NCBI GenBank assembly: GCA_024742695.1
Contig: JANSXY010000003.1
Coordinates: 124,001 to 188,000 of the forward strand
Source: Paracoccaceae bacterium
GTDB taxonomy: Bacteria > Pseudomonadota > Alphaproteobacteria > Rhodobacterales > Rhodobacteraceae
Direction of reading: 5' to 3'
Length of the DNA: 64,000 nucleotides
Shown one piece after another: positions 28,080 to 56,952 of the stretch; position 1 is the stretch's first letter, and each line of letters begins with the position of its first letter. Made by a program: the position numbers and the translations under genes. The notes under the pieces are model-generated. The model saw nothing but the letters and a program-made list of their open reading frames with translations, was not told the origin of the DNA and did no database searches.

Positions 28080-28127
28080 CACATCCTCCAAAGGCCAGGG
28101 GCGGAGATTCGGGTGGATGGATGTCCG

Positions 28128-28212
28128 ACCTTCCCTCCGCCGGTGTTAACCGGATCAGGTTCAACGGGTTCGCAGCCTGCGTCTCAGCCCTTGCGGGCAC
28201 CCCGAGGTAGCG
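28128..28212 (-). promoter_or_regulatory. TPP riboswitch (THI element)
   Basis: On the minus strand the aptamer reads TACCTCGGGGTGCCC..., GGCTGAGA, ACCCGTTGAACCTGATCC, GGTTAACACCGGCG, GGGAAG. These are the conserved blocks of the thi-box in order. It lies in the thiB leader and should repress thiBPQ when thiamine pyrophosphate is abundant, probably by occluding the ribosome site, since no terminator hairpin with a T-run is seen between it and the ATG. Confidence 0.96.
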
Positions 28213-28215
28213 AAG

Positions 28216-46745: not shown

Positions 46746-47948
46746 ATGGACACCCTCGACCGTCAGGCCGCGATCTCCTTCACGCAACCCGTCCGGCAAA
46801 TCCTCATGATGCTCGCCGTGGTCGGACTCGTGGCGGCAGGCGGGATTCTCGCATACGGCCGGATCTTCCCGATCTTCTTCGCCAATGTCTGGCTGAACGG
46901 GGTGATCCTCGGGGTGTTCGTGCTGGGCGTTCTGTCGACCTTCTGGCAGGTCGCGCAGCTGGTGCGCTCGGTCAGCTGGATCGAGGGGTTCGCGGTGCAG
47001 CGCCCGGGCCACGAACTGACCCGGCCGCCGCAATTGCTGGTGGCGCTGGCCGCGCTGCTGCGGGCGCGGGGCAGCCGGGCGCAGATCGCCAATTCCTCGG
47101 CCCGGTCGATCCTCGAATCCGTCGCCACCCGGATCGACGAGGCGCGCGACATCACGCGCTACATGGCCAACCTTCTGATTTTCCTGGGTCTGCTGGGCAC
47201 GTTCTACGGCCTCGCCACGACCGTTCCGGCGGTGGTGGACACGATCCGCGCGCTGGCCCCGCAGGAGGGTGAAAGCCCGCTTCAGGTCTTCGACAAGCTG
47301 ATGAGCGGGCTGGAACAGCAGCTGGGCGGCATGGGCACGGCGTTTTCCTCGTCGTTGCTGGGTCTTGCCGGATCGCTCGTCGTGGGGTTGCTGGAACTCT
47401 TCGCGACGCACGGGCAGAACCGGTTCTACCGGGAGCTGGAGGAATGGCTGTCGTCGATCACCCGGCTCAGCTTTTCCGCGGCCGAGGGCGATGGCGGCGG
47501 CGGTGGCGAGGCCAGCGTGGTGGCCGAGGTTCTCGACAGCATGGTCGAGCAGATGGACGCGCTGCGCGCGCTGCATGCCCAGGCCGATGCCGGCCGCACG
47601 ATGGTCAACCAGCGGATCGCGGCGCTCGCCGATGCGGTCGAGGGGCTGACCAGCCGGCTGGAGGACGATGTCGGCCAGCTGGCGGCGCTGGACCGGATCG
47701 CCGAGGGCCAGGACCGGATCGCCGAGCTGCTGGCCCGGCGGATCGAGGAGGGCGGCGGCGGCGACGGCGGGATCGACGCCGAAAGCCGGATGCGGCTGCG
47801 CTCGATCGACGTGCAGCTTCTGCGGCTTTTGGAAGAGGTCGCCGCCGGCCGGCAGGAAAGCGTGGCCGACCTGCGCGCCGACATCGCGCAACTGACCAAG
47901 GCGGTGCGCGGGCTCGGCACGACGGGCCAGGCCCGCCGGGGGCCGTAG
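46746..47948 (+). CDS. MotA/TolQ/ExbB-type proton channel protein with C-terminal coiled coil
   Basis: 400 residues from ATG 46746. Four membrane segments at ~20-38, ~50-68, ~141-160 and ~203-221; the last two follow the TolQ/ExbB pattern (LLIFLGLLGTFYGLATTV, then MGTAFSSSLLGLAGSLVVGLLE). After a Gly-rich hinge (~242-250) the C-terminal 150 residues are heptad-like (VLDSMVEQMDALRALHAQ and further), a cytoplasmic coiled coil. Paired with the next gene, one base apart, as the stator-like half of a proton-driven complex. Rhodobacterales genomes commonly carry this pair, annotated ExbB plus peptidoglycan-binding protein, with no assigned process. Confidence 0.82.
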   Translation: MDTLDRQAAISFTQPVRQILMMLAVVGLVAAGGILAYGRIFPIFFANVWLNGVILGVFVLGVLSTFWQVAQLVRSVSWIEGFAVQRPGHELTRPPQLLVALAALLRARGSRAQIANSSARSILESVATRIDEARDITRYMANLLIFLGLLGTFYGLATTVPAVVDTIRALAPQEGESPLQVFDKLMSGLEQQLGGMGTAFSSSLLGLAGSLVVGLLELFATHGQNRFYRELEEWLSSITRLSFSAAEGDGGGGGEASVVAEVLDSMVEQMDALRALHAQADAGRTMVNQRIAALADAVEGLTSRLEDDVGQLAALDRIAEGQDRIAELLARRIEEGGGGDGGIDAESRMRLRSIDVQLLRLLEEVAAGRQESVADLRADIAQLTKAVRGLGTTGQARRGP

Positions 47949-47949
47949 C

Positions 47950-49986
47950 ATGGCGGCGCCGGGGCGCGGGCAGCAGCGGTTCTCGGCCACGATCTGGCCG
48001 GGCTTCGTGGATGCGATGACCGCGCTCTTGCTGGTGCTGATGTTCGTGCTGACGATCTTCATGGTCGTCCAGTCGGTGCTGCGCGACCAGATCTCCACCC
48101 AGGATACCGAGCTGGACGCGCTGGCCGCGCAGGTCGCCGGGCTGGCCGAGGCGCTGGGCGTGGAACAGGGCCGCACCGCCGCGCTTCGCGACCAGATCGT
48201 CGGGCTGGAAGAGAACATCGACGCCGCCGAGGCGGAGGCGACGCGGCAATCGGCGCTGATCGCGGCGCTCAGCGCCGATCTCACGGCGCGCGAGGCGGAA
48301 CTGGACGCGGCGTCGGAGCGGATCACGGCGTTCGAGGCGCAGGTCGCCGGGCTGCTGGCCGAGCGCGACGCGGCGCGCGGCGAGGTCGCGGCGCTGACCG
48401 AGGAACGCGCGGAGCTGATCAGCGCGCAGGAGGCGCTGAACCTCGCGCTGGCGCAGGCCCGGTCGGAGATCGATGCGCAGACCGAACAGGCGAGGCTGGC
48501 CGCCGCCCGCCGCGCGGCGCTGGAGGCGCTGGTCACCGATCTGGAACGCACGGGCGAGGAAAACCGGGCCGCCATCGCCGCGCTTCAGGGCGAGCTGGAC
48601 GAAACCCGCGCCGCGCTGAGCGAGGAAGAGGCGGCGCGGCTGGCCGAGGCCGCGGCCGCCGAGGCGCTGCGCGAGCGGCTGCAATCGGCCGATGCCGAAC
48701 TGACGGCGATGACGCTGGCGCTGGAGGAACAGCGCCGGAAGGCCGAGGAAACGCTGACGATGCTGGCCGCCGCCGAGGCCGCGCGCGAGGATCTCGACCT
48801 CAGGCTGGCCGAGGCGCTGGCGACGCTGTTGGCCGCTGAGCGGGCGCGCGACACGGCGCGCGAGGCGCAGGCGGTGGCCGAGGCCGCGCGCCAGCGCGCC
48901 GAGACGCAACAGCAATCGGCGCTGGAGGCGCAGCAGGCCGCCGAGGCCGAGGCGGCGCGGCTGGCCGAAACCCTGCCCGACCGTGAAGACCTGGAACGCC
49001 GGCTGGCCGCGGCGCTGGCGGAGCGCGATGCCGCCGAGGGCCGCGCGGCGGCGGCGGAGGCCGAGGTCGCGCGGCTGACCGGCGAGATGCCCGACCGCGC
49101 CGATCTGCAACGCCAGCTGGCCGCCGCACTGGCCGCCCGGCTGGCCGCCGAGCAGGCCGCCGAGGATCGGCTGACCGAGGCGGAAGAGCGCGCCGCACTG
49201 CTGGCCGCGGCGCGCGACCGGATCGCCGAGCAGGAGGCGATGTCGGCCGAGGATGCCCGCCGGATGGCCGTGCTGAACGAACAGATCGCCTCGCTGCGCA
49301 CGCAGCTGGGTTCCCTGCAGGCCCTGCTGGACGCCTCGGCAGAGGCCGACCGCGCCTCGAAGGTGCAGATCGAGGCGCTGGGCAGCCAGCTCAACGCCGC
49401 GCTGGCGCGGGTCGCGGCCGAAGAGCGCCGCCGCCGCGAACTGGAAGAGGCCGAGCGACGCCGGCTGGAGGAGGAGGCGCGCCGGCTCGCCGCCGAGGCC
49501 GAACTGCTTCAGGACGAGGCGCAACAGCTGGCGCGCTACCGGTCGGATTTCTTCGCAAAGCTGTCGCAGGTTCTGGAAGGGCGCGAGGGCGTGCGGGTGG
49601 TCGGCGACCGGTTCGTGTTCTCCTCCGAAGTGTTGTTCGAACCGGGCTCCGCAGAACTCCTGCCCGAGGGCCGGGGGCAGATCGAACGCGTCGCGCAGAC
49701 GCTGCTGGACATCTCCGACCAGATCCCGCCGGAAATCGACTGGATCATCCGGATCGACGGCCATACCGACAACGTGCCCCTGCGCGGCGGCGAATACGCC
49801 GACAACTGGGAACTGAGCCAGGCGCGGGCGCTGTCGGTCGTGCGCTTCCTGCAGGACGATCTGGGATTCCCGCCCGACCGGATGGCGGCGACCGGCTTCG
49901 GCGAATACCGCCCGGTGGCCGAGGGGGAAAGCCCCGAGGCGCTGGCGCAGAACCGCCGGATCGAGCTGAAACTCACCGAACGCTGA
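47950..49986 (+). CDS. MotB/OmpA-type peptidoglycan-binding protein with a ~460-residue coiled coil
   Basis: 678 residues. One membrane helix (~18-42) carries the plug-type Asp in WPGFVD21AMTALLLVL, as in MotB/ExbD partners. Residues ~50-515 are almost unbroken Ala/Glu/Arg coiled coil, with internal near-repeats such as LAETLPDREDLERRLAAALAE and LTGEMPDRADLQRQLAAALAA. Residues ~545-678 are an OmpA domain: VLFEPGSAELLPEG, IDGHTDNVPL, NWELSQARALSVV, GFGEYRPV, NRRIELKL. The coiled coil could span the periplasm (roughly 70 nm if continuous) and reach peptidoglycan far from the membrane, or fold back. Ion-driven torque or force transduction is inferred. Confidence 0.85.
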   Translation: MAAPGRGQQRFSATIWPGFVDAMTALLLVLMFVLTIFMVVQSVLRDQISTQDTELDALAAQVAGLAEALGVEQGRTAALRDQIVGLEENIDAAEAEATRQSALIAALSADLTAREAELDAASERITAFEAQVAGLLAERDAARGEVAALTEERAELISAQEALNLALAQARSEIDAQTEQARLAAARRAALEALVTDLERTGEENRAAIAALQGELDETRAALSEEEAARLAEAAAAEALRERLQSADAELTAMTLALEEQRRKAEETLTMLAAAEAAREDLDLRLAEALATLLAAERARDTAREAQAVAEAARQRAETQQQSALEAQQAAEAEAARLAETLPDREDLERRLAAALAERDAAEGRAAAAEAEVARLTGEMPDRADLQRQLAAALAARLAAEQAAEDRLTEAEERAALLAAARDRIAEQEAMSAEDARRMAVLNEQIASLRTQLGSLQALLDASAEADRASKVQIEALGSQLNAALARVAAEERRRRELEEAERRRLEEEARRLAAEAELLQDEAQQLARYRSDFFAKLSQVLEGREGVRVVGDRFVFSSEVLFEPGSAELLPEGRGQIERVAQTLLDISDQIPPEIDWIIRIDGHTDNVPLRGGEYADNWELSQARALSVVRFLQDDLGFPPDRMAATGFGEYRPVAEGESPEALAQNRRIELKLTER

Positions 49987-50044
49987 GCGCTTTTCCCCGC
50001 GCGCCTGCCGGGCTACATCAGCCGTGTCGAGAACGGAGTCGCCG

Positions 50045-50362
50045 ATGTCCCTGATCCGCCTGATCTACCTCGCCCTCGCCGTCGCGGGCGCGATCATCCC
50101 GATGCGGCATTTCGTGGCGTGGTTCATGGAAAACGGCTGGAGCCTGTCGGGCATGATCGATGCCTGGTTCGTGAACCGCGCGACCGAGGGGCTGGTGTGG
50201 GATCTGACGATCGCGGCGATCACGCTGACGGTCTGGATCCTGGTCGAGACGGTCGTGCGCCGCAACTGGCTGGCGCTGTTCGCGATCCCGGCGACCTATT
50301 GCATCGGGGTCAGCTGCGGCCTGCCGCTTTACCTGTTCCTTCGCACCCGCAGGATCGACTGA
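50045..50362 (+). CDS. DUF2834 membrane protein
   Basis: 105 residues, ATG 50045. Three membrane segments (~5-25, ~48-68, ~75-95). The end TRRID carries a positive tail. The DUF2834 family is defined by this arrangement and by the FVAWFMENGWSLSGMIDAWFVN and LAVAGAIIPMRHF segments. Function unknown. Its stop overlaps the lysA start by one base (TGATG), so the two are translationally coupled. Confidence 0.75.
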   Translation: MSLIRLIYLALAVAGAIIPMRHFVAWFMENGWSLSGMIDAWFVNRATEGLVWDLTIAAITLTVWILVETVVRRNWLALFAIPATYCIGVSCGLPLYLFLRTRRID

Positions 50363-51627
50363 TGGATCACTTCGTCTACCGGGGCGGTACCCTGCATGCC
50401 GAGGACGTGCCGGTGGCCGATATCGCCGCCACCGTCGGCACGCCCTTCTACCTGTATTCGCGGGCGACGCTGGAACGCCACTACGGGCTGTTCGAAGAGG
50501 CGCTGGCGGGCACCGATCACCTGATCTGCTACGCGGTGAAGGCCAATTCGAACCTCGCGGTGCTGAAGGTTCTGGGCGATCTCGGCGCCGGGATGGACGT
50601 GGTGTCGGCCGGCGAATACCTGCGCGCGAAGGCCGCCGGCGTTCCGGGCGAGCGGATCGTGTTCTCCGGCGTCGGCAAGACCCGCGAGGAGATGCGGATC
50701 GCCTTGTCGGGCGGGGTGCGGCAGTTCAACGTCGAAAGCGAACCGGAGCTTTTGGCGCTGTCCGAAGTCGCCGCTGGGCTGGGCCGCACGGCGCAGATCG
50801 CGATCCGGGTGAACCCCGATGTCGATGCGAAGACGCACGAGAAGATCGCCACCGGCAAGAAGGAGAACAAGTTCGGCATCCCGATCGACCGCGCCCGCGC
50901 GATCTATGCCGAGGCCGCCGCCCTGCCGGCAATCGAGGTCGTCGGGATCGACGTGCATATCGGCAGCCAGCTGACCGAACTGGAACCGTTCCGGCAGGCC
51001 TATCTGAAGGTGCGCGACCTGACATGGGCGCTGCGGCAGGATGGCCACCGGATCGGCCGGCTCGACCTCGGCGGCGGGCTGGGCATTCCCTACACCCGCG
51101 CGAACGAGGCGCCGCCGCTGCCGCTCGACTACGGCGCGATGGTCAAGCAGGTGCTGGGCGACCTGGGCTGCGAGATCGAGATCGAGCCGGGCCGGCTGAT
51201 CGCCGGCAATGCCGGGCTCCTGGTCTCCGGCGTGATCTACGTGAAATCCGGCGAGGGGCGGGATTTCCTGATCCTCGACGCGGCGATGAACGACCTGATC
51301 CGCCCGGCGATGTACGGCGCGCATCACGATATCGTGCCTGTGACGGAACCCGAACCCGGTGCGCCGCAGCATGTCTACGACATCGTCGGCCCGGTCTGCG
51401 AGACCGGCGATACCTTCGCGCGCGGCCGGCCGATGCCGCCGGTCGCGGCGGGTGATCTGGTCGCGTTCCGCTCCGCCGGAGCCTATGGCGCGGTCATGGC
51501 GTCGGAATACAACACGCGGCCGCTGGTGCCGGAGGTTCTGGTCAGCGGGGATCACTTCGCCGTCATCCGGCCGCGTCCGACATTTGACGATATCCTCGCA
51601 CGCGATACGATCCCCCCATGGCTTTGA
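50362..51627 (+). CDS. lysA: Diaminopimelate decarboxylase
   Basis: 421 residues. PLP-dependent enzyme producing L-lysine from meso-DAP. The PLP Lys is in CYAVKANSNLAVL (~60). Other landmarks: GSGGE-type site appears as DVVSAGEYLRA, VNPDVDAKTHEKIATGKK, KFGI, VDVHIGSQL (here IDVHIGSQL), LGGGLGIPYT, EPGRLI, and GPVCETGDTFA with the active-site Cys. Catalytically complete. Coupled to DUF2834; dapF lies 32 kb away. Confidence 0.95.
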   Translation: MDHFVYRGGTLHAEDVPVADIAATVGTPFYLYSRATLERHYGLFEEALAGTDHLICYAVKANSNLAVLKVLGDLGAGMDVVSAGEYLRAKAAGVPGERIVFSGVGKTREEMRIALSGGVRQFNVESEPELLALSEVAAGLGRTAQIAIRVNPDVDAKTHEKIATGKKENKFGIPIDRARAIYAEAAALPAIEVVGIDVHIGSQLTELEPFRQAYLKVRDLTWALRQDGHRIGRLDLGGGLGIPYTRANEAPPLPLDYGAMVKQVLGDLGCEIEIEPGRLIAGNAGLLVSGVIYVKSGEGRDFLILDAAMNDLIRPAMYGAHHDIVPVTEPEPGAPQHVYDIVGPVCETGDTFARGRPMPPVAAGDLVAFRSAGAYGAVMASEYNTRPLVPEVLVSGDHFAVIRPRPTFDDILARDTIPPWL

Positions 51628-51684
51628 TCCGCACGATCCGCGCGGGCGGGCCGCAGGCGGCACGGAAGGGACGGCCCGGCGGCG

Positions 51685-54279
51685 ATGGATGACAGGGGCG
51701 CACTGAAGGCGGAGATGACCGGCGGGCTGGGCTGGAAGGTTCGGCTCACCCTGGCGGGCATGGTCGCCGAACGCGCAACGCGGGCCTTCTGGCCGGCCTG
51801 GACGATCCTGCTTGCGGCGGCGGCGGCGCTGGCCTTCGGCGCGCATGATCTGCTGGGTCGCGGCGCGCTGCTGGCGGCGGTCGCCGCCGTGGCCCTCGCC
51901 GTGCTCGTCACCCTTGCGCTTGGCCTGCGGCGGTTCCGCTGGCCGCGCCGCGTCGAGGCGCTGGACCGGATCGACCGGCGGTTGCCGGGCCGTCCGATCG
52001 CGGCGCTGGGCGATGCGCTGGCGCTGGGCGAGGCCGACCCGGCCACGCGCGGCGTCTGGGCCGCCCATATCGCCCGGATGACCGAACGCGCCCGCAAGGC
52101 CCGGCCCGCCGCGCCCGACCTGCGGCTGGCCGCGCGCGATCCGCTGGCGCTGCGCTATGCCGCGCTCACCGGCTTCGTCGTCGCGCTGGCCTTCGGCCTG
52201 CCGGGCCGGGTGGCCGAGGTCGCCGGAATCGCCACCGGGCCCGGCACGGCCGTGGCCGCCGGCCCGGCCTGGGAGGGCTGGGCGGAGCCGCCGGCCTATA
52301 CCGGCCGGCCCAGCCTGTACCTCAACGCCATCGTCGCGGGGCCGGTCGAGGTTCCCGAGGGTAGCCGCATCACCTTCCGGCTTTACGGCGGTGACGGCCT
52401 GTCGGTGAGCGAGACGGTATCGGGCAACCCGCTGCCCGAGGCCGGCGCTGCCGCCGCCGACGAACCGGTGCGCGCCATCGCGTTCGACGCCCTGCAATCG
52501 GGCGAGGTGACGGTTGCCGGGACCGGCGGGCGGACATGGCAGATCGCGGTGCTGCCCGACGACGGGCCGACCGTGGCCTTCGAGGGCGACATGGGCCGCG
52601 AGGCCGACGGCCAGATGCGCCAGGCCTTCCGCGCCACGGATGACTATGCGGTGACCGCCGGGCGCGCCGAGATCCGGCTCGACCTAGCCGCCGTCGACCG
52701 CCGCTACGGGCTGGCCTACGAGCCCGAGCCGCTGGCCCCCCTGATCTACGATCTGCCGTTGCCGTTCTCCGGCAGCCGGGCGGAGTTCACCGAGTTCCTG
52801 CTGGAAGACGCCTCGAAGCATCCCTGGGCGAACCTGCCGGTAAAGGTCACGCTGTTCGTCGAGGATGGGCGCGGGCAGGAAGGGCAAAGCGAAACCCGCG
52901 CGCTGTCGCTGCCCGGCAAGCGGTTCTTCGACCCGCTCGCCGCCGCCGTGGCCGAAATGCGGCGCGACCTGCTGTGGTCGCGTGAAACCGCGCCGGACGT
53001 GCAGGGCATCCTGCGGGCGCTGACGCACCGGCCCGAGGGGCTGTTTCGCAACGAGCGCGCCTTCCTGATGCTCAGGGCGGCGATGCGCCAGCTCGACGCC
53101 GGGTTGCAGCAGGCCGCGCTGACCGAGGAATTGCGCGACGAACTGGCCGAGGCGCTGTGGGAGATCGCGATCCTGATCGAGGACGGCGGGCTGGCTGACG
53201 CGCTGGAGCGGATGCAGCGCGCGCAGGAACGGCTGTCCGAGGCGATCCGCAACGGCGCCAGCCCCGAGGAGATCGAGGAACTGATGCGCGAGTTGCGCGA
53301 GGCGACGCAGGATTACATCCGCATGCTCGCCGAACGCGGCATGGAACAGGACGGCGACGGCACCGATACGCCGCAAGACCAGCAACAGGGCCAGCAGATC
53401 ACCGGTGACCAGCTTCAGCAGATGATGGACGAGATCCAGCGCCTGATGGAAGAAGGCCGGATGGCCGAGGCGCAGGAACTGCTCGAGCAGTTGCAGCGGA
53501 TGCTGGAAAACCTCCAGGTCACCCAGGGCCAGGGCGGCGACCCGGTGCAGGGCGGGCCGGGCCAGCAGGCGATGCGCGACTTGCAGGACACGCTCCGCCA
53601 GCAACAGGGCCTGTCGGACGAGGCGTTCCGCGACCTGCAGGAACAGTTCGGCCAGAACCAGCCCGGCCAGCAGGGCCAACAGGGCCAGCAAGGCCAACAG
53701 GGCCAACAGGGGCAGCAGCCCGGCCAGGGCCAGCCCGGTGCGCCCGGCGAGGGGCAGGAGGGCGATCAGCCCGGCGGCCCCGGCGGCAGCCTGGCCGACC
53801 GGCAGCGGGCGCTGCGCGACATGCTGGGCGGACAGATCGGCAACCTGCCCGGCCAGAACAGCGAAGAGGGCGAGGCCGCGCGCCGCGCGCTGGAAGAGGC
53901 CGGCCGCGCGATGCGCGAAGCCGAACAGGCGCTGCGCGACGGAGATCTGCCCGGCGCGATCGACGAACAGGCCGAGGCGATCGAACGCCTGCGCGAGGGC
54001 ATGCGGTCGCTGGGCGAGGCGCTGGCGCAGGAACAGGGCGCCCAGCAGGGCCAGCAGGGGCAGGCGCAGGGCGAACCCGGGCAGGAGGTGCCGCGCGACC
54101 CCCTGGGCCGCGAAACCGGGCAGGGCGGCCGCTTCGGCACCGACGAGGAAATGGTGGGCGAGGGCGATGTCTACCGCCGGGCGCAGGATCTGCTGGACGA
54201 AATCCGCCGCCGGTCGGCCGAACGCGAACGCCCGGACCTGGAACTCGACTACCTTGGCCGGTTGCTCGAACGGTTCTGA
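51685..54279 (+). CDS. TIGR02302/DUF4175 family large membrane protein
   Basis: 864 residues from ATG 51685. Two to three hydrophobic segments lie within the first ~190 residues. A periplasmic-looking beta-rich domain follows (YTGRPSLYLNAI, SRITFRLYGGDGL, VDDGxTVAFEGDMG). The C-terminal ~400 residues are Gln/Glu/Met-rich helical, with an extreme (GQQ)n tract near residues 660-680. Families TIGR02302 and DUF4175 match this architecture and gene context; the function is unknown. Its presence in Rhizobiales and Rhodobacterales, close to lysA, is typical. Confidence 0.82.
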   Translation: MDDRGALKAEMTGGLGWKVRLTLAGMVAERATRAFWPAWTILLAAAAALAFGAHDLLGRGALLAAVAAVALAVLVTLALGLRRFRWPRRVEALDRIDRRLPGRPIAALGDALALGEADPATRGVWAAHIARMTERARKARPAAPDLRLAARDPLALRYAALTGFVVALAFGLPGRVAEVAGIATGPGTAVAAGPAWEGWAEPPAYTGRPSLYLNAIVAGPVEVPEGSRITFRLYGGDGLSVSETVSGNPLPEAGAAAADEPVRAIAFDALQSGEVTVAGTGGRTWQIAVLPDDGPTVAFEGDMGREADGQMRQAFRATDDYAVTAGRAEIRLDLAAVDRRYGLAYEPEPLAPLIYDLPLPFSGSRAEFTEFLLEDASKHPWANLPVKVTLFVEDGRGQEGQSETRALSLPGKRFFDPLAAAVAEMRRDLLWSRETAPDVQGILRALTHRPEGLFRNERAFLMLRAAMRQLDAGLQQAALTEELRDELAEALWEIAILIEDGGLADALERMQRAQERLSEAIRNGASPEEIEELMRELREATQDYIRMLAERGMEQDGDGTDTPQDQQQGQQITGDQLQQMMDEIQRLMEEGRMAEAQELLEQLQRMLENLQVTQGQGGDPVQGGPGQQAMRDLQDTLRQQQGLSDEAFRDLQEQFGQNQPGQQGQQGQQGQQGQQGQQPGQGQPGAPGEGQEGDQPGGPGGSLADRQRALRDMLGGQIGNLPGQNSEEGEAARRALEEAGRAMREAEQALRDGDLPGAIDEQAEAIERLREGMRSLGEALAQEQGAQQGQQGQAQGEPGQEVPRDPLGRETGQGGRFGTDEEMVGEGDVYRRAQDLLDEIRRRSAERERPDLELDYLGRLLERF
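53665..53719 (+). repeat. Short tandem repeat encoding (GQQ)n
   Basis: A 9-nt unit close to GGCCAACAG repeats six times with small silent changes, inside the TIGR02302 gene. It encodes Gly-Gln-Gln. Being in-frame, length changes would alter the protein without shifting the frame. Candidate contingency or spacer tract. Confidence 0.7.
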
Positions 54280-55197
54280 TCAGGCGCCGCCGGTATCGCC
54301 GGCGACGAGGCCGCGCAGCGTGGCGTCGAGAGCGAGCCGCAACTCGTTCACCCAGGCGACGTAGTCGGCCAGCGGCCCGGCCATCCCCGGAAAGATCGTC
54401 GACAGCGCCGGGGCCAGGACATAGGCGGTCAGCGCCAGCAGCCCCAGCGCCAGCATCAGCGAGAACCCGGTGCGAAAGCCCGACCGGCCGGAGGCGGCGG
54501 CCGGCACCGGTTCTTCCGGCCCGGTGGCCGGCGGTTCCTGCGCCGCCAGCGTCGCCGTGATCGCGTCGGCATCGGGCAGCGGCGTTTCCGCGGCCGGTTC
54601 CGGCGCCGTTTCGGTCGGCTCGACCGCCGGTTCCGTGGCCGGTTCGGGCCGGCGCGGCACCGGCGCGGGCGGCGGCAGACCCAGTTCGCCCTGTTCCTCC
54701 ATGCCGCGTTCCGCCTCGGCCTTGCGGGCGCGGGCTTCGCGCTCGGCCTCCTCGCGCAGGATCGACAGAACGGCTTCGTCCATCGCGCGGCGGTTCTGAT
54801 CGGTTCCTGTCTCCGGCGCGTCGCCGTCGCGCGCGGCGGCGGGTTCGGCGCCCAGCGAATCGGCTCCGGGCAGGTGATCCACCGGCTCGTCGTCTTCCCA
54901 AGCGGCGTCTTCCTCGGGGTGCGGCAGGCGGCGTCCGGTTTCGGGCGCGGTATCCGCCCCGTCCGCGACATCGCCTCCGGCGTCCTGCGTGGCCGGCGTT
55001 TCGGGGGCCGGCGTTTCAGGGGCCGCTTCGGGCGCCGCCCCGGTTTCGGGCGGGGCCGGTGCGGCGGGTTCGGCCGCCGCGGGCGGCTGGAACCAGCTAT
55101 GGCCGCAGTTCGAGCACTGCACATCGCGCCCGCCGGGCGGGATCACGCGGTCATCGACATCGTACTGGGCCGCACAGTTCGGACAGACAAGCCGCAT
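54280..55197 (-). CDS. MJ0042-type zinc-ribbon membrane protein
   Basis: 305 residues, ATG 55197. The N-terminus is a zinc ribbon (CPNCAAQYDVDD..., then CSNCGHSWF) with two CxxC pairs at ~4-7 and ~29-32. A long Pro/Glu/Ala-rich disordered linker with several EPA/PET runs follows. A single membrane segment (FSLMLALGLLALTAYVLAPAL) is near ~245-265. Family members are widespread in alphaproteobacteria with unknown roles, often near ftsEX. The stop follows the TIGR02302 stop directly, so the genes converge. Confidence 0.82.
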   Translation of the reverse strand: MRLVCPNCAAQYDVDDRVIPPGGRDVQCSNCGHSWFQPPAAAEPAAPAPPETGAAPEAAPETPAPETPATQDAGGDVADGADTAPETGRRLPHPEEDAAWEDDEPVDHLPGADSLGAEPAAARDGDAPETGTDQNRRAMDEAVLSILREEAEREARARKAEAERGMEEQGELGLPPPAPVPRRPEPATEPAVEPTETAPEPAAETPLPDADAITATLAAQEPPATGPEEPVPAAASGRSGFRTGFSLMLALGLLALTAYVLAPALSTIFPGMAGPLADYVAWVNELRLALDATLRGLVAGDTGGA

Positions 55198-55251
55198 CGC
55201 ATATTCCCCCACCGTCGGGTCCGCGGCCGTGACCGTTCGCCCGTTCTGGCG

Positions 55252-55279
55252 TTTATCTGCAAGCTGTTGTAGCAAGCAA
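55252..55279 (-). promoter_or_regulatory. Possible promoter of the zinc-ribbon gene
   Basis: Minus strand TTGCTT (55274-55279), 16-nt spacer, GATAAA (55252-55257), about 55 bp before the ATG, in the gap between this gene and the divergent ftsE. Moderate match only. Confidence 0.4.
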
Positions 55280-55360
55280 GGGGGTGTTGTCCAAGGCTTG
55301 GTGGGCCTTCGGTGGTGCCCGGCGGGGCAATCGACGGGCGCGAAAACGCGCGGGGGCAGG

Positions 55361-56035
55361 GTGATCGGGTTTTCCTCGGCAGGGTTTGGCTATGCGGGCG
55401 CGCGCCCGCTGCTGACCGGGCTCGACCTGGCGTTGCCCGCCGGGTCGTTCCATTTCCTCACCGGGCCCTCGGGTGCGGGAAAAACCACTTTCCTGAAGCT
55501 GTGTTACGGCGAACTGGTCGCGACCGAGGGCGGCGTGACGCTGTTCGGGACGGACGTGCGGCAGATGGATCGCGACGGTATCGCCGCGGCCCGCCGGCGG
55601 ATCGGCGTGGTGCACCAGGATTGCCAGTTTCTCGACCATCTGACCCTGACCGAGAACGTGACGCTGCCGCTGACCGTCGCCGGGCGACCGGTGCCTGAGC
55701 GTGATCTTGCCGATCTGATGGCCTGGGTCGGGCTGACGGACCATGCGGATGCCCGGCCGCCGGAACTGTCGGGCGGCGAGCGGCAAAGGGCGGCGCTGGC
55801 CCGCGCGGTGATCACCGCGCCCGACCTGATCCTCGCCGACGAGCCGACCGGCAATGTCGACTGGGAAATGGCGGTCCGGCTGCTGGAACTGCTGGTCGAT
55901 CTGAACCGGATGGGCAAGGCGGTGCTGATCGCCACGCACGACCTGAACCTGATCCGGGCGTCGAAATCGCAGGTCTCCGCGCGCCTCCTGCGGATTCGCG
56001 ATCGCCAGGTGCAGGCGGCGGGGGCAGAATTGTGA
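55361..56035 (+). CDS. ftsE: Cell division ATP-binding protein FtsE
   Basis: 224 residues. The start is GTG 55361 behind GGGGGCAGG, giving the usual VIGFSSAGFGY beginning; upstream frame is not conserved. Walker A GPSGAGKTT, signature LSGGERQRAALARA and Walker B LILADEPTGNVD are complete. Together with FtsX it activates peptidoglycan hydrolases at the septum. The end overlaps ftsX (GTGA). Confidence 0.92.
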   Translation: MIGFSSAGFGYAGARPLLTGLDLALPAGSFHFLTGPSGAGKTTFLKLCYGELVATEGGVTLFGTDVRQMDRDGIAAARRRIGVVHQDCQFLDHLTLTENVTLPLTVAGRPVPERDLADLMAWVGLTDHADARPPELSGGERQRAALARAVITAPDLILADEPTGNVDWEMAVRLLELLVDLNRMGKAVLIATHDLNLIRASKSQVSARLLRIRDRQVQAAGAEL

Positions 56036-56952
56036 GCGCGCCCTCGGGCCCCCTGGGCGTGCTCGCGGCGCGCCTGCCCGGCCGGGCCGACACGCCGGCC
56101 GCGCGGGTGGTTCCGCCGACCGGCTTCACCGCGCAGCTCACCGTGTTCACCGCCGCCGCGATGAGCTTCCTGGCAGTCTTCGCCATCGCGATGGCGCTGG
56201 CGGCGGGGCAGTTGGCCGACCGCTGGCAGGCGGCGCTGTCGCAAAGCGCGACGATCCGTGTCTCGGCCCCCGCCGACCAGATCGAGGCGCAGACCGCCGC
56301 CGTCCTGCGGGTGCTGGAGACGACGCCGGGCGTGGGCGCGGCGCGGCGGCTGGACGACAACGAGATGCGCGGGCTGCTCGCGCCCTGGTTCGGCACCGAC
56401 CTGCCGGTCGAGGCGCTGCCGCTGCCGCGTCTGATCGAAGTGACGGAAACCGGTGCGGGATTCGATGCCGAGGGTCTGCGGTTGCGGCTGGCGGCCGAGG
56501 CGCCGGGCGCGGTGCTGGACGATCACGCGCGCTGGCGCCGCCCGCTTGTCGCCGCGGCGGAACGGTTGCGGGCGGTGTCGCTGGTGGCGCTGGTGCTGAT
56601 CGCGCTGGTGCTGGCGGCGATGGTCACGCTTGCCGCGCAGGCCGCGCTGGCCGCCAACGGGCAGGTGATCCGGGTGCTTCGGCTGGTGGGCGCGGAGGAT
56701 CGGTTCATCTCGGCGGCCTTCGTGCGGCGCTTCACCGCGCGGGCGCTGGCCGGATCGCTCGCCGGGACGCTGGCCGGGCTTGGCGCAGTGGCCCTGATGC
56801 CGCGCGCGGCGGCGGATGTCGGGCTTCTGGCCGGGCTCGGGCTGTCCGGCAGCGCCTGGCTCTGGCCGCTGGTCGTGCCGGCGGCGGCGGCGGCGCTGGC
56901 CTATGCCGCAACCCGCGTCGCGGCCGCCCGGACACTCAGGAGGACGCCGTGA
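56032..56952 (+). CDS. ftsX: Cell division protein FtsX
   Basis: 306 residues. GTG 56032 overlaps the ftsE stop. Four membrane segments are visible, at about 45-65, 180-205, 232-255 and 272-295. The large extracytoplasmic loop between TM1 and TM2 (roughly 66-175) should contact a periplasmic hydrolase or EnvC-like factor; none is in this window. Third gene plsC overlaps its end (GTGA), making an ftsE-ftsX-plsC operon. Confidence 0.88.
   Translation: MSAPSGPLGVLAARLPGRADTPAARVVPPTGFTAQLTVFTAAAMSFLAVFAIAMALAAGQLADRWQAALSQSATIRVSAPADQIEAQTAAVLRVLETTPGVGAARRLDDNEMRGLLAPWFGTDLPVEALPLPRLIEVTETGAGFDAEGLRLRLAAEAPGAVLDDHARWRRPLVAAAERLRAVSLVALVLIALVLAAMVTLAAQAALAANGQVIRVLRLVGAEDRFISAAFVRRFTARALAGSLAGTLAGLGAVALMPRAAADVGLLAGLGLSGSAWLWPLVVPAAAAALAYAATRVAAARTLRRTP

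Follow-up and report, generated by a model that had tools for sequence, protein, structure and literature searches.

The 64,000-nucleotide stretch analyzed here (the window) comes from a Paracoccaceae bacterium of the alphaproteobacterial family Rhodobacteraceae [GenBank assembly: GCA_024742695.1; contig JANSXY010000003.1, positions 124,001 to 188,000, forward strand] and carries two adjacent genes, designated A and B. Gene A (46746-47948, plus strand) encodes a 400-amino acid channel subunit of the MotA/TolQ/ExbB/ZorA type with a cytoplasmic helical tail, and gene B (47950-49986, plus strand) encodes a 678-amino acid subunit of the MotB/ZorB type. Both lie on the same strand with a single base (47949) between the reading frames, exactly as described in a reading of the DNA letters that preceded this work (the original prediction). 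In this work we have analyzed the kinship, distribution and architecture of the pair, which is core in its lineage and most likely represents a little-studied branch of ion motors near ZorAB. The new observation is that the distance from the ion-carrying Asp of B to its OmpA domain shifts mainly in heptads across relatives, and this has been replicated in a held-out set of loci.

The AlphaFold 2 (AF2) model of the A protein (mean predicted local distance difference test score, pLDDT, 70.2; predicted template modelling score, pTM, 0.51) has long helices at residues 16-46, 48-83, 116-169 and 178-244, followed by the helical tail. The third and fourth long helices each contain an expected pore residue, Thr152 (LGLLGTFYG; 47199-47201, plus strand) and Ser203 (AFSSSLLGL; 47352-47354, plus strand) respectively, and both are invariant in 97/97 aligned A proteins; four predicted membrane helices with Ser/Thr in the pore helices are what characterizes the A subunits of the ion-motor superfamily. 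The score of A against Pfam PF01618 (MotA_ExbB), 16.5 bits, is under the gathering cut-off of 22.9, so that A stands outside this family as curated, and the A/B pair was not among the matches when its own genome was searched with PF01618. Assignment of A to the superfamily is made because of its matches to ZorA models, the conserved pore residues and the predicted fold, and on these grounds the proposed TolQ/ExbB/MotA-type channel with a cytoplasmic tail is confirmed, though below the PF01618 cut-off. The tip of the tail (residues 344-383; 47775-47894, plus strand) is also conserved: in the 97-row alignment D344 is kept in 83 rows, R352 in 85, R369 in 84, R377 in 86 and L383 in 84. The tip persists across the class despite a variable tail length, which follows no heptad pattern, and its conservation makes it a possible partner-binding site.

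In the B protein a single transmembrane helix containing Asp21 (48010-48012, plus strand) is followed by a coiled coil and an OmpA domain; one Asp-bearing transmembrane helix is likewise what characterizes the B subunits of the superfamily. The plug of MotB is a separate periplasmic helix, and Asp21, earlier called an intact "plug Asp", is indeed intact and is instead the ion-carrying transmembrane Asp. Its equivalents in ZorB are D24 and D21, according to the Zorya study (PMC11890865). The sequence around Asp21 is WPGFVDAMTALLLVLMFV. Loss of the Asp in most homologues was looked for, and the motif turned out to be retained in 100 of the 101 discovery loci (99 in the first motif scan, L103, whose frame starts upstream, having been added on a later check) and in 54/56 held-out class loci. 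The sole discovery locus without it, L092, encodes an OmpA protein lacking the motor N-terminus. Together with L289 and L295 it belongs to family f131, in which OmpA-domain proteins close to B occur without the Asp motif; all three genomes carry A. The OmpA-type peptidoglycan-binding domain of the window protein (residues 562-669; 49633-49956, plus strand) matches PF00691 with 61.7 bits (cut-off 27.2; E = 8.5e-17), and D607 and R626 are present in 99/99 aligned rows, in line with the earlier description of an intact peptidoglycan motif. The whole B protein matches NCBIfam NF006542 (PRK09039.1-1, "peptidoglycan -binding protein") with 790.8 bits against a cut-off of 388 over profile positions 1-627 of 627; it is thus a full-length, already catalogued member of this family. 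The names of NF006542 and of its sister models NF006543-NF006546 give neither process nor partner, and the sister models, with 342-350 positions, describe proteins with shorter coils.

Judged by sequence, A is nearer to ZorA than to TolQ/ExbB or MotA. With PADLOC the A protein matched ZorA1 (6.1e-13) and the B protein matched the ZorB models (2.9e-21). All 34 rows of an alignment of A proteins matched PADLOC ZorA models (34/34, best 2.8e-16), and the same rows searched against NCBIfam at E <= 0.1 gave two matches to MotA1, one to TolQ and one to ExbB. In a maximum-likelihood tree of 57 rows the 21 A rows formed one clade (99/97) which was joined with ZorA and ZorA-like rows (95/87); this tree is midpoint-rooted, with long branches and a bootstrap that had not settled. 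Its 36 comparison rows were those kept after five of the eight loci from the ExbB search, with TolQ as the best seed, had been left out, and its rows labeled "ZorA2" are ZorA-like, lying below the curated cut-off (0/200 genomes over it), and are not proven Zorya. The A protein itself reached 18.5 bits against NF033917 (ZorA), for which the curated cut-off is 500. A search of PDB sequences with the A profile returned mostly coiled-coil matches to the tail and was not used.

The resemblance to flagellar MotAB/PomAB comprises the predicted A fold, the Asp and the OmpA domain of B, whose best solved relatives are of the MotB/PomB type. Relatives of the pair are also often annotated as MotA/MotB, as in Table 1 of PMC6570709. 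From such likenesses A and B could be read as a flagellar stator, or as a swimming-motor accessory that gives torque to the flagellum or tunes it. We regard this as highly improbable: the genome has a separate flagellar MotA1-type stator of its own (C22:51412-52257), the A protein (P0001) has no match to the MotA1 model TIGR03818 at E <= 1, a Pfam scan of neighboring genes in the window identified none as flagellar, and the pair is kept in genomes of 0.7-1.1 Mb and also in non-flagellated Komagataeibacter, if the relative discussed below is rightly identified. The pair also differs from MotAB in its long coil, which stands in place of the short linker characteristic of MotB. With TolQR/ExbBD the pair shares the predicted A fold and the ion-motor logic; it differs in that B carries an OmpA domain (PF00691), that A (P0001) has no match at E <= 1 to the tolQ/exbB models TIGR02796 and TIGR02797, and that the genome contains a separate TolQ gene. 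In a survey of MotAB relatives in mBio, the group of generic ion transporters is reported to have B subunits without OmpA homology (PMC12505986), a description which the A/B family, with its OmpA domain in B, fails to match.

The B gene is core in the family of the window: NF006542 matched, at E <= 1e-30, 192 of 198 genomes of this family, and 171 of 173 when only those of high quality were counted. At the same threshold it matched 247 of 385 genomes of the class, only five of these over the curated cut-off, and 63 of 299 genomes of a sample of the phylum (58 inside the class and five outside). The implied oddity of this one gene has therefore to be given up, since it is core in the family and catalogued in NCBIfam. 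A profile of A at E <= 1e-20 matched 249 of the same 385 class genomes, in which both genes were found in 242, A only in seven, B only in five and neither in 131. An A homologue lies near B at 41/41 family loci (window included) and at 57/60 class loci, one of the 57 being a 70-amino acid piece at a contig end. At 60 further loci a script rule found A adjoining B in 51; the remainder are three with overlapping frames, two cut by contig ends, two of family f103 with A elsewhere, and L289 and L295. In five genomes (G103, G209, G299, G377 and G141) A and B are separated, on different contigs or by 186 kb, yet both are kept, and four of these belong to family f103 with genomes of 0.7-1.1 Mb. When 14 genomes were picked by hand, seven of them with A not found beside B, A was located elsewhere or beside B in 13. 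A and B are thus demonstrably inherited together. The named relatives are nearly all Rhodobacterales, and the class to which the window belongs is accordingly taken as Alphaproteobacteria. In one 0.9-Mb genome of family f68 (G068:C2:75927-76757) the A frame is interrupted by one TGA and one TAA. At L090 and L268 (f103, 0.7-1.1 Mb genomes) B lies away from A, phage- or gene-transfer-agent-like genes were seen by eye near both, and at L090 B stands beside a guanylate-kinase-like gene.

The relationship to ZorAB raises the question of a Zorya-type antiphage system, or of a remnant of one that recruits effectors encoded elsewhere. In its favor are the ZorA models as the nearest named families for A, the matches of the ZorB models to B and the tree position. 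With ZorAB as described in PMC11890865 the pair shares a B helix that bears an Asp, Ser/Thr residues of A, the wall-binding domain of OmpA type and the helical tail of A. The differences are that no effector gene has been found near the window pair, that the pair is core and not sporadic, that its A tail is shorter than that of type I ZorA, and that the B coil varies about nine-fold (140-1273 residues); component size is reported, in the same study, to be well conserved within each Zorya type. PADLOC gave no match at E <= 0.001 in the nine neighbors of the window pair, the only neighbors scanned, which together with the Pfam result bears out the statement that no defence or flagellar partners are nearby. 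The low score of A against NF033917 and a core gene with stable chromosomal neighbors, unlike a sporadic defence locus, likewise speak against this explanation, which we consider very unlikely. The pair is most likely not for flagellar motility or phage defence.

The survey of the gene neighborhood that had been proposed was carried out and revealed, among the recurrent neighbors that were identified, no association with a characterized system. Among the 41 family loci the neighbors were ChaC (41), DUF2125 (38), hisC (36) and tyrC (36), and at the 40 other than the window a ClpA/B-type AAA protein (35), a hydroxyacylglutathione hydrolase (32) and an extensin-like protein (32); none of the last three clusters includes class loci. 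At the 60 class loci (59 genomes) the clusters were inositol monophosphatase (48), EF-P (46), ABC transporter (33), thiamine-phosphate synthase (31) and GAPDH (25), each named by Pfam from one representative. No third component common to family and class was seen among the 45 largest neighbor clusters, many of which look like unannotated antisense frames. An attempt to derive the process from the neighborhood was abandoned, as none emerged and the recurrent neighbors that could be identified are mostly housekeeping genes.

The coiled coil of the window protein occupies about residues 45-533 (48082-49548, plus strand), as judged from its periodicity and the AF2 helix. Period 3.5 was the strongest of seven tested in five of eight sequence windows along the coil and tied in one, and period 3.3 or 3.6 exceeded it in the other two. 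The AF2 model of B (mean pLDDT 70.7, pTM 0.31) is helical over residues 19-542, interrupted at 207-224, 341-342 and 377-383, and suggests a helix outside the membrane that is closer to 490 residues than to the 460 given in the original prediction, which was right about the presence of the coil. Conserved blocks at residues 161-200, 221-280 and 441-500 are separated by length-variable stretches. The internal sequence repeats noticed earlier are three 103-nucleotide copies (48738-49152, plus strand) beginning at 48738, 48936 and 49050; the reference copy shares 65% and 75% identity with the other two. The linkers of MotB-type proteins are short, and the description of the coil as "extremely long" is valid only against these; within its own family, in which coils range from 360 to 1273 residues, that of the window ranks 24th of 41 and is of ordinary length.

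Coil length across relatives was taken as the distance between the Asp and the position that aligns with F534 of the window protein. A lattice of 3.5-residue spacing corresponds to three of the seven classes modulo 7, into which chance alone would place three lengths in seven. Of the 60 class loci of the discovery set 58 were kept (L092 was dropped for its lack of a motor N-terminus and L103, missed by the first scan, fits the lattice with length 332, class 3, when added later); 44 of these 58 fell in one class modulo 7 and eight more were shifted by 4, and among the 38 distinct lengths 24 belonged to the main class. The Rayleigh statistic was 22.6 at period 3.5, the next of 21 periods being period 7 with 7.5, which shares the heptad signal. 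The 41 family loci fell mainly in two classes (13 and 16), with a statistic of 12.2 at period 3.5 and not more than 2.2 at others. The held-out class set comprised 54 measurable loci of 56 (L289 and L295 being without the Asp motif), many from families already in the discovery set: 36 were in the predicted class, 10 at +4 and four at +3, which places 50/54 on the lattice with a statistic of 21.3 at period 3.5. Among the 10 held-out loci from families new to the discovery set seven were in the main class and nine on the lattice. Four loci outside the class (192, 224, 192 and 199) all lay on the lattice, as did 63 of the 74 measurable named loci (74/80 had the OmpA block), or 62/73 without L157, a duplicate of the DNA at discovery locus L036.

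For the pooled class set of 112 loci (range 140-486) 80 were in one class and 104 on the lattice, and when each taxonomic family contributed a single value, 67 in all, the means were 49.3 for the one class and 62.7 for the lattice. The 29 within-family length differences included 18 multiples of 7, seven equal to 3 or 4 modulo 7 and four others. In controls on distinct lengths the statistic at period 3.5 did not exceed 0.8 for the A tail (five anchor pairs, two sets) or 0.4 for the N-terminal tail of B, which has few distinct lengths, in contrast to the 22.6 and 12.2 obtained for the coil. With uncollapsed class loci two proximal A-tail distances had a commonest class (26/53 and 28/54), which we read as shared lengths. 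A hairpin coil was considered and found less likely for the class, because paired arms would favor 14-residue steps and single-heptad differences are the commonest (8/29); the argument covers class members other than the window. There is precedent in phytochrome-regulated diguanylate cyclases and in photoreceptor histidine kinases, where linker lengths spaced by heptads have been read as a sign that the coiled-coil linker is continuous (PMC9587094, PMC6798134).

We propose that five A subunits ring two B helices and that ion flow past D21 would turn A relative to B. In most members the B dimer would extend into a single parallel coiled coil, locked in register, which would both connect the motor with peptidoglycan and hold the transmembrane and OmpA ends in a fixed rotational phase. 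B being held by the wall, the moving part on the cytoplasmic side would be A together with its tail and the conserved tip. At a coiled-coil rise of 0.1485 nm per residue, coils of 140-1273 residues would measure 20.8-189 nm; the gap between inner membrane and wall is about 10-20 nm, and because it is exceeded the coil of most members would have to tilt, lie flat or bend, and could in this way follow the envelope to a distant anchoring point. A purely static role, in which A and B form a scaffold mechanically linking inner membrane and wall and ion flow is incidental, would suit the long register-locked coil with its OmpA domain and the retention of both genes in reduced genomes. It seems rather improbable to us, as a pure tether would have no need of Asp21, Thr152 and Ser203, which are invariant or nearly so. 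We favor with moderate confidence the interpretation that the pair is an ion-driven motor with a housekeeping role, a member of the MotAB/TolQR/ExbBD/ZorAB superfamily in sequence nearest to ZorAB, whose job is most likely envelope or wall maintenance during growth and division; the ion-motor logic of MotAB/ZorAB kind recognized from the start is supported by the ZorA models, pore residues and fold. A more specific version, which we hold to be doubtful though worth stating, is that the B dimer acts as a phase-locked drive shaft extending 20-190 nm along the envelope and carrying twist or tension to a distant wall anchor, the pair being a chromosomal, housekeeping sister of the Zorya motor for wall remodeling at the poles or the division site.

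The driven process was left unnamed in the original prediction, and formally this stands; phenotypes have been published, however, from Komagataeibacter hansenii, which has a probable relative of the pair (PMC6570709, PMC6315621, PMC7347698). This non-flagellated bacterium has adjacent motA (348 amino acids) and motB (321 amino acids) genes (PMC6570709), of sizes within the range of the class members analyzed here. Their overexpression gave longer cells in chains, and green fluorescent protein (GFP) fusions were located at one pole in short cells and at both poles in long ones (PMC6570709). Joint overexpression of motA and motB caused elongation as well (PMC6315621), and disruption mutants with denser cellulose have been obtained according to a review (PMC7347698). 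These genes probably belong to the A/B family because of their size and adjacency, the reported alphaproteobacterial matches and the lack of flagella. Apart from PMC6570709 the literature searches on Rhodobacter, Agrobacterium, Brucella and related terms revealed no paper on the pair, and in the papers found it is nowhere described as a motor of the stator type distinct from those of Tol and the flagellum.

Several observations weigh against the housekeeping motor interpretation or against its coiled-coil component. Foldseek with the A model matched TolQ, ExbB and ZorA with a best E of 2.5e-3, hence none at E <= 0.001, and ranked TolQ and ExbB above ZorA; VIA-align gave Z scores of 11.6 for TolQ, 10.3 for ZorA and 9.6 for MotA, and for helical bundles Z scores below about 13 carry little weight. 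The 5:2 stoichiometry, ion flow, rotation and peptidoglycan binding are proposals drawn from sequence and models, and in one of the 14 hand-picked genomes B matches weakly and A is absent. The K. hansenii genes are probable members by features other than sequence comparison, their phenotypes, largely seen on overexpression, could be indirect effects, and increased colony spreading is reported as well. As to the lattice, eight of the 112 pooled class loci and nine of the 41 family loci are off it, and of 17 held-out lengths unseen in the discovery set 14 are on it and only six in the main class. The window is itself among the exceptions: its Asp-to-F534 distance is 513, class 2 modulo 7, and AF2 breaks its coil at three places, so that this coil need not be a single rod; the internal repeats and the breaks may be why it departs from the lattice.

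Finally, 18 of 98 B genes (L033-L132) contain tandem arrays whose period is a multiple of 21 bp. Duplication of heptads has therefore probably contributed to the lattice, part of which may stem from it and not from selection. That such 21-bp duplications in a repetitive gene account for the whole pattern as a by-product, with the ends of the coil unconstrained, is in our estimation unlikely: 80 of the 98 genes are free of such arrays, none has been reported for the window B gene, and 104 of 112 class loci are on the lattice, so other in-frame indels seem rarely to be kept.

With 242 of the 385 sampled class genomes carrying both genes, a motor of the stator type that is neither Tol nor flagellar Mot would be widespread in the class. 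Its heptad-spaced, length-variable coil offers an experimental handle for distinguishing a register-keeping shaft from a passive tether, and if the pair is indeed a housekeeping sister of ZorAB it provides a comparison for how the defence motor may have arisen.

Some features of the surroundings deserve mention. Downstream of the pair in the window (50024-56952) lie DUF2834, lysA, DUF4175, ftsE and ftsX. A wall link through lysA-DUF4175-ftsX was rejected, as lysA, DUF4175, DUF2834 and ftsX stand beside the pair only in the window among the 41 family loci. The ftsE query matched two of the 41 family loci and 38 of the 60 class loci, and the latter matches are read as general ABC-ATPase cross-matches. 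The extensin-like gene (PF06904) near the pair at 32 of 40 family loci is found, for example, at L037:4777-5568. Elsewhere in the window a thiamine pyrophosphate (TPP) riboswitch is located at 28115-28214 on the minus strand.

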